From NCBI RefSeq assembly GCF_036669915.1, contig NC_089316.1, positions 28,190,669 through 28,254,668 of the forward strand: DNA of 64,000 bases, given 5' to 3'. The DNA is from Pocillopora verrucosa. Taxonomy: Eukaryota > Cnidaria > Anthozoa > Scleractinia > Pocilloporidae. Below the pieces are notes generated by a model. The model did no database searches. It was not told the DNA's origin and saw only the letters and a list, made by a program, of their open reading frames with translations. This document shows, in pieces, positions 42,201 to 45,200 of the stretch (its first letter is position 1; every line of letters starts with the position of its first letter). The position numbers and the translations under genes were made by a program.

Positions 42201-45200
42201 TATGATCAGAAACATAATCTTTTTTGTTTTTCCACATTTAACCCTTAACATAAAAAAAGATTGACAAAAACAATAGGATCTTGTTGTCATTAAGACTTCA
42301 GTCTGTCAGAGAAGTGGGAGATAAGTCCATGGAGGAAAAAGATCCTATTAGTCATGACCACGTTAGCGCAAGTTCAGGTGATATCAAGAAAGTCATAGAC
42401 TTCTATAATTGGGGAGAAGAAGCCATAGAGTACCTAAACCTATATCTTAAAAAAGCTAAAGAAGTAGGAGACAAACATGGGGAGGGTCGTGCTTATGGCA
42501 ATCTTGGCAATGCTTATCACCGTCTGGGTGATTTCAAAAAAGCCATAGAGTACCACAACCTACATCTTAAAATAGCTAAAGAAGTAGGAGACAAGCATGG
42601 GGAGGGTAGTGCTTATGGCAATCTTGGCAATGCTTATGACAGTCTGGGTGATTTCAAAAAAGCCATAGAGTACCACAACCTAGATCTTAAAATAGCTAAA
42701 GAAGTAGGAGACAAGCATGGGGAGGGTGGTGCTTATGGCAATCTTGGCAATGCTTATCAGAGTCTGGGTGATTTCAAAAAAGCCATAGAGTACCACAACC
42801 TACATCTTAAAATAGCCAAAGAAGTAGGAGACAAGCATGGGGAGGGTAGTGCTTATGGCAATCTTGGCAATGCTTATTCTAGTCTGGGCGATTTCAAAAA
42901 AGCCATAGAGTACCACAACCTACATCTTAAAATAGCTAAAGAAGTAGGAGACAAGCATGGGGAGGGTGGTGCTTATGGCAATCTTGGCAATGCTTATTCT
43001 AGTCTGGGTGATTTCAAAAAAGCCATAGAGTACCACAACCTACATCTTAAAATAGCTAAAGAAGTAGGAGACAAGCATGGGGAGGGTGGTGCTTATGGCA
43101 ATCTTGGCAATGCTTATCACCGTCTGGGTGATTTCAAAAAAGCCATAGAGTACCACAACCTAGATCTTAAAATAGCTAAAGAAGTAGGAGACAAGCATGG
43201 GGAAGGTGGTGCTTATGGCAATCTTGGCAATGCTTATTCTAGTCTGGGTGATTTCAAAAAAGCCATAGAGTACCACAACCTAGATCTTAAAATAGCTAAA
43301 GAAGTAGGAGACAAGCATGGGGAAGGTGGTGCTTATGGCAATCTTGGCAATGCTTATTCTAGTCTGGGTGATTTCAAAAAAGCCATAGAGTACCACAACC
43401 TACATCTTAAAATAGCTAAAGGAGTAGGAGACAAGCATGGGGAGGGTCGTGCTTATGGCAATCTTGGCAATGCTTATCACAGTCTGAGTGATTTTAAAAA
43501 AGCCATAGAGTACCACAACCTACATCTTAAAATAGCTAAAGAAGTAGGAGACAAGCATGGGGAGGGTCCTGCTTATGGCAATCTTGGCAATGCTTATCGC
43601 CGTCTGGGTGATTTAAAAAAAGCCATAGAATACCATAACCTAAATCTTAAAATAGCTAAAGAAGTAGGAGACAAATCCTTGGAGGCAATGGCCTACTGTT
43701 CATTAGGATGCGTTTCTGTGGACTGCCAAAAGCCGTTGAACATTACCAAGCTAGCATAAACTTATTCAATTCCTTGAGAGTACTTCTTAAATCTAAAGAT
43801 GAGTGGAAAGTTAATTTTCGAAATCAGCATCAAATGGCGTATACGGGTTTGTGGAGAGTTCTCGTAGAACAAGGTAATGTAGATGAAGCCTTATTTGTTG
43901 CTGAGAAAGGACGAGCTCAAGCTCTAACCGACCTCATGGAATCCAGTTTTCGTGGTGGAACAAGTCACCACAAGGGAGAAGATGAAGATTGCGCAGTTTT
44001 AAAAAACGTTCCATCAAACACTGTCTTTCAGGCAGTGGACGAAGCTAACGTCAATCTTTGGGTTGTGTCCGAAGGAAAACAAGTTCAGTTAAGACAAAGT
44101 AAACTCAAAGGTTTTGTTTCAGAGAATAGTGGATCTAGCCAGTCGTTTGAGTCGTACATGCTCGGTGTCTATACACAACTTGGTGTTCGTTCTAATGTGA
44201 GATGCGAGAATCGATCTTTAGATGCTTTGAGGGAGGGCCGTTCAAAAGTGGATGAGAAAACCAAAGAAGCCAACCCTCAACCTCACTTCCAACAAGACGG
44301 ATGCTTGAGCAGTTTGTATGATATCGTTATGAAGCCGGTGGCTGACTTGATTCAAGGGGATGAGCTTCTCATTATTCCTGATGGACCCCTGTGGATCGCT
44401 CCTTACGCTGCATTGAAGGATGGTAATTCTAAATATCTGTGTGAATCGTTCACAATCCGAGTCGCTCCATCGTTAGCAAGTCTTAGACTCATTGCCGATT
44501 GCCCAGATGATTATCACAAAAGCAGTGATGCGTTACTTGTAGGAGATCCGTGGGTATCCGAGGTTACTAACAGCGAGGGAGAGAAAGTCCTCGAGCAGCT
44601 TCCGTGTGCTAAAGAAGAAGTAGAAATGATCGGAGAAATTCTGAATATTACGCCAATCACTGGCAGAAAAGCCACGAAACGTGAGGTGTTGAAAAGACTC
44701 AGTTCCGTTTCCTTAGTTCACTTTGCGGCACACGGATGTATGGAAACTGGCGAAATTGCTCTTACACCTGACCCAGACCGAATATCTTCTGTGCCTACCA
44801 AGAAAGAGGATTACATTTTAACGATTCGAGATGTGTTGAATGTTCAACTTCGCGCTAAACTTGTTGTGCTCAGTTGCTGCCACAGTGGTCGGGGCGAGAT
44901 CAAGGCTGAAGGTGTGGTTGGCATTGCGCGCGCTTTTATTGGGGCTGGTGCTCGGTCTGTTGTGGTGTCCCTGTGGGCGATTGATGACGAGGCTACTCTC
45001 GAGTTCATGAAATGCTTTTATCAACACCTTGCAGAAGGTAAATCTACAAGCAAGTCACTGAACCTGGCCATGAAAAGCCTCAGAGAATCAGATGAGTTCC
45101 ACGACATCAAATACTGGGCGCCCTTTTTGCTGATTGGAGATGACCTCAAGTTTGACCTGATGGCAAAGGAAAGAGAAAATTTGAATAGAAAATCAAATAA

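Follow-up and report, generated by a model that had tools for sequence, protein, structure and literature searches.

Here, we describe a tandem array of ten near-identical tetratricopeptide repeat (TPR) units in a TPR-CHAT (TTC28-like) gene of the stony coral Pocillopora verrucosa. The gene lies in a stretch of 64,000 nucleotides of contig NC_089316.1 (assembly GCF_036669915.1, positions 28,190,669 to 28,254,668, forward strand), which was analysed as a whole and is called the window (G000:C5:28190669-28254668). The units share a constant scaffold and vary mainly at four residues, which together form a short codeword per repeat, and the same four residues recur as the most variable ones in three clades of paralogues. 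With a probability of about 70%, this gene binds ligands through the superhelix that the array forms, with codewords that are kept diverse by selection.

In detail, TPR-CHAT genes form a large, tandemly expanded animal family, in which a constant scaffold of the LGN type, including a nearly invariant Asn at unit position 9, would form a groove. Positions 2, 12, 13, and 27 of each repeat would then constitute the codeword on or at this groove. Units may be gained, lost, and overwritten, probably through unequal crossing-over and gene conversion, and selection would maintain the diversity of the codewords so that each gene presents a binding surface of its own. Where a paralogue is intact, the sensor is fused to the caspase-like CHAT domain, and binding would probably regulate this domain, much as in the gating envisaged in the preliminary description. 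The ligands may be peptides, and the family may serve in immunity or self-recognition.

Architecture of the array and its variable codons

The array comprises ten units of exactly 120 bp each between positions 42485 and 43684 of the window, read in TPR register on the forward strand. Tandem Repeats Finder (TRF) supports it with a single array of period 120 (42420-43674, 95% matches, 0 indels). The preliminary description of this DNA had recognised ten near-identical 120-bp units correctly; its interval of 42458-43657 denotes this array with a register shift of 27 bp. Positions within a unit are numbered as in TPRs (L7, G8, Y11, A20), and every unit corresponds to one 40-residue TPR of the LGN/GPSM2 type (E 5.5e-107 for Pfam TPR_12). 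A query of two units yielded eight alignments of 77-80 amino acids with the rest of the array at 89.6-96.3% identity, and two further alignments running beyond the array at 77%. The array thereby shows the repeat identity of more than 85% over at least 100 amino acids that marks high internal conservation of the fungal type. A degenerate pseudo-unit precedes the array, as is the case in 17 of the 20 close paralogues fetched. With this pseudo-unit and a probable upstream TPR exon, the part of the gene that can be seen at its 3′ side is complete; the splice from this exon probably leads to about position 42302, as deduced by eye from the reading phase alone.

Positions 2, 12, 13, and 27 are hereafter called hypervariable (HV). 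Counted over the ten units, position 2 (following the motif GEG) is occupied by Gly five times, Arg and Ser twice each, and Pro once. Position 12 carries four Ser, three His, and one each of Asp, Gln, and Arg, position 13 seven Ser and three Arg, and position 27 (following HNL) six His, three Asp, and one Asn. These per-unit counts agree with the residue variants listed for each site in the preliminary description. When the last unit is excluded, the remaining nine contain eight distinct four-letter codes. In counts of distinct codons over the ten units, the HV positions show 10 nonsynonymous and 0 synonymous alternatives versus 5 and 7 at the other 36 codons (Fisher p 0.005). Each of the five replacements outside the HV positions occurs in one unit, and three of them are located in the last unit. 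The earlier statement that the units differ nearly only at the variable sites thus applies to the amino acids and not to the silent changes, which are located elsewhere.

Recurrence of the variable positions among paralogues

A search of the 353-Mb genome (52 contigs) with the CHAT frame returned at least 88 CHAT matches among the best candidates scored, with at least two genes split across two matches. About 7 kb was fetched for each of 20 close paralogues (L031-L050), and four distant paralogues (L051-L054) were fetched as well. From the window and the close paralogues 318 units were parsed and 297 kept, the 21 discarded ones being 18 N-terminal pseudo-units and three frame-broken units. Omission of the 21 last units left 276 core units, namely 125 in clade C5, 103 in clade C13/C4, and 48 in clade C12; values for the three clades are given in this order. 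In the distant arrays, 104 of 113 pattern matches were retained (22/24, 18/21, 37/39, and 27/29).

When positions are ranked by the mean of their within-array heterozygosities, the HV positions take the first four places in all three clades, and with pooled units they are also the top four in C5 and C13/C4. Within single arrays, position 12 belongs to the four most variable positions in 25 of 25 cases, position 2 in 23, and position 13 in 20. The distant, homogenised arrays L052-L054, which were the distant arrays used in the scaffold comparison and differ there by 24.8-28.5% from the three clades, vary mainly at the HV sites in two cases and weakly so in the third. In L054, the most variable positions are, in descending order, 12, 2, 13, 5, and 27. 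In L052 they are 12, 27, 2, and 3, and position 13 (rank nine) shows no variation. L053 displays the pattern weakly, with 12, 2, 23, and 5 at the top and positions 27 and 13 on ranks seven and eight.

Further observations concern the condition of single family members. In L047, a member of the C12 cluster, about eight units reappear as a block whose codewords are nearly the same and follow in the same order, a sign of block duplication. The C12 arrays L048 and L049 contain frame breaks or stops, and some CHAT matches elsewhere contain stops, so that some members of the family look like pseudogenes. Prokaryotic sequences were tried as comparators as well. A contig scan gave 26 loci, three of which have chains of at least three units at 120-bp spacing by our own pattern; two of the three have diverged units (57 and 72% to their consensus), and the HV pattern is missing from the array of four units in Altarchaeum, so no general statement for prokaryotes follows.

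Selection, neutral turnover, and mutation as possible sources of codeword diversity

Nonsynonymous diversity (piN) at the HV codons within arrays exceeds the synonymous diversity (piS) of all codons by factors of 8.3 (7.2-10.2), 5.6 (4.3-7.5), and 4.4 (3.7-5.0) in the three clades. On the same scale, the other 36 codons reach 0.62, 0.66, and 0.63, and the CHAT domains of the same genes 0.50, 0.42, and 0.51. Parsimony on unit trees places the nonsynonymous rate (dN) of the HV codons at 4.65-6.17 times the overall synonymous rate (dS), and the contrast in nonsynonymous to synonymous (N:S) changes between HV and other codons is strong in C13/C4 (p 2e-6); such tree counts are unsafe because of recombination. 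The comparison of replacement with silent differences between units, which had been proposed as a check, thus reveals that, in the window as in all three clades, replacement diversity at the HV codons is higher than synonymous diversity overall. Set against the HV codons' own synonymous sites it reveals no clear excess, since synonymous diversity at these codons is itself high (0.24, 0.36, and 0.42 by path counting, versus 0.02-0.06 elsewhere). The main source of these high values is that two or three bases separate many codewords (GGT/AAC, TCT/CAC), and the synonymous sites are few. It is firm that both kinds of difference concentrate at the four codons, and the case for selection rather than mutation as the cause rests on controls, namely codon third bases, the first unit, and a recent duplicate pair.

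Several results weigh against a selected codeword. On their own synonymous sites, the HV codons have piN/piS ratios of 1.3, 1.1, and 0.9 for C5, C13/C4, and C12, compared with 1.4 for the window array and 1.0 for L053; the ratio is 7 in L052 and 1.5 in the diverged array L051, and L054 is without any synonymous difference at these codons. The other 36 codons are likewise near neutral, both on their own synonymous sites (1.4, 1.1, and 1.0) and on unit trees (dN/dS 0.92-1.14). The unit-tree N:S contrast is borderline in C5 (p 0.047), C12 shows none (p 0.19), and counts of distinct codons, tried as a selection test, did not separate HV from other codons in the three clades (p 0.22, 0.26, and 0.79). 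Codewords that differ by two or three bases point to old lineages or to a locally raised mutation rate. The standing of position 27 is lower than that of its companions, as it is among the top four in just 12 of 25 arrays and is narrowly surpassed by position 17 in the pooled C12 units (pairwise difference 0.559 versus 0.566). Reshuffling of units has to be reconciled with the fact that 12 of 341 distinct units are present in more than one array, and gene conversion is judged uncommon in corals in the available text of a coral genome paper (PMC10236652). Finally, the likely groove placement of the HV sites derives from homologues and not from model coordinates.

Some of these results are also what homogenisation with neutral noise would produce, in which unequal crossing-over keeps the units alike and the HV positions are surface sites tolerant of replacement. 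The ratios near 1, the near-neutral scaffold codons, and the similar distinct-codon ratios all agree with it, as does scaffold difference that is alike within and between arrays (2.3 versus 2.4% in C5, 4.5 versus 4.6% in C13/C4). The C12 arrays are more separate (5.5 versus 6.8%), and the HV codons of C5 differ by 31% within and 36% between arrays. However, relaxed constraint alone leaves unexplained the concentration of silent and replacement differences at just four codons, with replacement diversity 4.4-8.3 times the overall synonymous level, and other helix positions on the exposed side by helical wheel (18, 22, 25, and 29) vary little (pairwise difference 0-0.17). Recurrence of the same four positions in three clades, together with a first unit that is conserved at positions 12 and 13, is not predicted by this explanation either. 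We regard it as improbable. The proposal that the array is an evolving recognition surface is therefore supported by replacement diversity, turnover between paralogues, and mapping onto homologues, with the reservation that HV replacement roughly equals the synonymous diversity of the same codons, and the opposing proposal of neutral noise is disfavoured.

Targeted or local hypermutation of the HV codons, whether through a mutational hotspot or through a process that generates diversity, and whether or not selection takes part, would account for their raised synonymous diversity and for the many codons that differ by two or three bases. Third bases speak against it. At positions 13 and 27 they are nearly fixed in the three clades (heterozygosity 0-0.09) and the first base is highly variable; at position 12, L052 and L054 each encode six amino acids with T always as third base, although in L053 the third base of this codon is not fixed. 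Pairs of units with the same amino acid but different codons give a mixed picture across families. At HV positions they are rarer than elsewhere in C5 (0.4 versus 1.2%), L052 (0 versus 4.7%), and L054 (0 versus 2.9%), opposite to what hypermutation would cause, and somewhat commoner, in its favour, in C13/C4 (4.2 versus 2.8%), C12 (6.4 versus 3.6%), and L053 (9.2 versus 5.8%).

The first unit, identifiable in 18 of the 21 arrays (that of the window among them), provides a second control. Its positions 12-13 are encoded by CAC-CGT in 14 of the 18 arrays and read His-Arg in 15, and heterozygosity at position 12 is 0.10 in first versus 0.87 in inner units although the sequence context is alike, which argues against a plain mutational hotspot. 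The conservation does not extend to position 2 (0.68 versus 0.78) and barely to position 27 (0.46 versus 0.48). The His-Arg first unit may be a conserved cap or an end shielded from unit turnover; the inner and last units vary.

The third control is the pair L034/L035, recent duplicates with 99.8% identity over 2132 bp downstream and 99.7% over 3277 bp upstream of their arrays. The two arrays have 13 and 14 units. Over the 13 aligned units, the HV codons differ seven times in four units, all of these being replacements, versus eight replacements and one silent change at the other 36 codons. In three of the four changed units at least two bases are altered in the HV codons together, as conversion from another unit would do, and most changed sites swap in codons already present in the array, which speaks against hypermutation. 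On balance, hypermutation is unlikely, and diversifying selection on codewords that may be exchanged by conversion is the preferred cause. As to the earlier suggestion that paralogues be compared for repeat number and variable codons, both differ, even in this very recent pair.

The groove, the CHAT domain, and related systems

Among natural proteins of known structure, LGN and Pins are the best sequence matches of the array, behind one engineered TPR protein. Fold comparison also gives LGN as the closest natural solved relative, and LGN structures have bound peptides. The predicted structure, for which one of five AlphaFold models was confident, consists of alternating helices at about unit positions -3 to 13 and 17 to 33. 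Alignment to studied TPRs identifies positions 2, 12, and 13 as concave; position 2 aligns with R236 and position 27 with R221 of LGN, both of which contact NuMA. The variable sites are thus concave or ligand-contacting by homology, in accordance with the groove-facing orientation that the preliminary description had considered.

An alternative is structural compensation, in which the HV sites tune packing or curvature between neighbouring repeats and not ligand binding. Position 27 lies at a wheel angle of 180 degrees, near A20 and A31, on a face of helix B that packs against helix A in canonical TPRs, and several families show a correlation between positions 12 and 13, both of which favour this alternative. 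However, the dependence of positions 2 and 27 on the 12-13 pair is weak in most families, with L053 as the clearest exception, and the aligned LGN residues contact NuMA. This alternative is very doubtful. A ligand-binding superhelix, in turn, admits a more specific version, which we advance tentatively and consider possible rather than likely. The array would be a modular peptide reader, in which the nearly invariant Asn 9 holds an extended peptide backbone and the four-residue codeword reads the side chains. Units reshuffled over scores of TPR-CHAT genes would then make up a germline-diversified repertoire of receptor-proteases without a nucleotide-oligomerization domain (NOD), directed at pathogens or at self.

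The CHAT domain lies downstream (PF12770, E 4.4e-60) and includes the motifs HFAAHG and LSCCHSG, which would hold the presumed catalytic His and Cys, an assignment to which an alignment with 8rot_B (E 0.09) lends weak support. In the window copy it is out of frame with the array. Relative to all 20 close paralogues, which have a continuous frame across the junction, this copy has a 10-bp deletion, because of which the array frame ends at 43759. TPR array and CHAT therefore do not share a single frame, and the copy as read cannot yield both in one chain. Splicing was considered as the cause of the break, but the one short GT-AG stretch seen by eye at the junction is 21 bp long, a multiple of three that cannot alter the frame. 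Possible readings of the break are a young pseudogene, a polymorphism, a product with TPRs only, or an error of assembly; the codeword pattern does not hinge on this copy.

Some elements of this picture are already known. In the accessible text on coral TPR-CHAT genes, 6 to 362 copies are reported in the species examined, and it is proposed that TPR diversity may widen the range of partners (PMC12314368); a paper on Acropora similarly proposes that diverse TPRs may broaden partner diversity. These coral genes likewise combine a TPR array of variable length with one CHAT domain and are tandemly expanded on a large scale (PMC12314368, PMC9145168). The window copy departs from them by its frameshift between array and CHAT, and the available parts of these two papers do not resolve hypervariable positions per repeat, turnover of codewords, or their mapping onto the groove. 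A literature search, largely without subscription papers, found no report of a per-repeat code in animal or coral TPR-CHAT proteins.

A parallel is found in fungal NOD-like receptors (NLRs). According to the text available, their sensor repeats (WD40 of the HNWD type, TPR, and ANK) consist of near-identical units with polymorphic repeat number, proposed concerted evolution, and a few variable concave positions under positive selection (PMC4986451), and such WD40 repeats serve Podospora in recognising HET-C variants (PMC12222747). As regards selection at a few concave positions, HV replacement diversity in the coral arrays exceeds the overall synonymous level but roughly equals the synonymous diversity of the same codons, at positions that are concave by homology. 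Unlike the fungal receptors, which are STAND/NOD proteins, the coral gene combines a 40-residue LGN-type repeat with a CHAT effector in an animal host, and neither of the two frames scanned, array and CHAT, matched a NACHT or NB-ARC profile at E ≤ 0.001, upstream exons lying outside the scan.

Craspase (Csx29) also unites TPRs and a CHAT protease in one chain and, in the source text available, couples protease activity to target recognition, but is prokaryotic and RNA-guided. LGN/GPSM2/Pins share the 40-residue TPR, and helix A of LGN lines the groove that holds the peptide in the accessible part of its description (PMC6525239); unlike the units of the window array, the LGN repeats are individually distinct in our alignments and not homogenised. 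LGN carries GoLoco motifs and not CHAT, and for Craspase we know of no hypervariable tandem code. TALE and PPR arrays, in which each repeat combines an unchanging scaffold with a few variable code residues, read nucleic acids. The likeness to these arrays drawn in the preliminary description holds formally, but the closest natural solved relatives of the coral array bind peptides. At E ≤ 0.001, Pfam gave matches to 22 families, and no TALE repeat is among them. The PPR profile scores 41.4 bits over the whole protein (cutoff 25) with no single stretch passing, compared with 350.5 bits for TPR_12, and PPR repeats have 35 residues versus 40 in the window units.

The division into constant scaffold and variable codeword directs attention to the groove of the coral TPR-CHAT family. 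It would also point to a second origin, in animals, of the arrangement seen in fungi, in which homogenised repeats vary at concave sites; here the sensor is linked straight to a caspase-like effector.

The features of the window are compiled in Table 1. A tandem cluster of class A (rhodopsin-type) G protein-coupled receptor (GPCR) genes, several of them broken, flanks the TPR-CHAT gene on both sides, and Pfam 7tm_1 matched all five GPCR frames scanned (those starting at 2527, 6649, 11816, 54495, and 58410).

Table 1. Features of the TPR-CHAT gene and its neighbourhood (window coordinates).
Feature	Position	Strand	Basis or remark
Probable upstream TPR exon	41002-41067	+	reading frame
Open frame containing the array	42281-43759	+	stops 75 bp past the last unit
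Degenerate N-terminal pseudo-unit	42365-42484	+	directly before the array
Ten TPR units	starts 42485, 42605, 42725, 42845, 42965, 43085, 43205, 43325, 43445, 43565	+	exact spacing, TRF, Pfam, helical hairpins in model
HV codon, position 2	42488-42490 (unit 1; +120 per further unit)	+	R/S/G/P; rank 1 or 2 in three clades
HV codon pair, positions 12-13	42518-42523 (unit 1; +120 per further unit)	+	HR, DS, QS, SS, HS, RR
HV codon, position 27	42563-42565 (unit 1; +120 per further unit)	+	H/D/N; aligned to LGN R221
CHAT open frame	43708-45204	+	PF12770; other frame than the array
10-bp deletion site	43717-43718	+	relative to 20/20 close paralogues
Motif HFAAHG	from 44719	+	sequence motif in CHAT frame
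Motif LSCCHSG	from 44869	+	sequence motif in CHAT frame
GPCR frames	2527-3498, 6649-7629, 11816-12808	+	Pfam 7tm_1
GPCR frames, partial or broken	16544-17426, 20461-20793	+	by eye from translation
GPCR frames, partial or broken	54495-55767, 58410-59390	+	Pfam 7tm_1
Long frame, looks retroelement-derived by eye	20518-21891	-	overlaps GPCR fragment; single Pfam match below curated cutoff
Predicted tRNA-Arg (anticodon ccg)	23586-23657	+	predicted with bacterial setting
Globin-like exon frame	48990-49331	-	PF00042, E 6.8e-11
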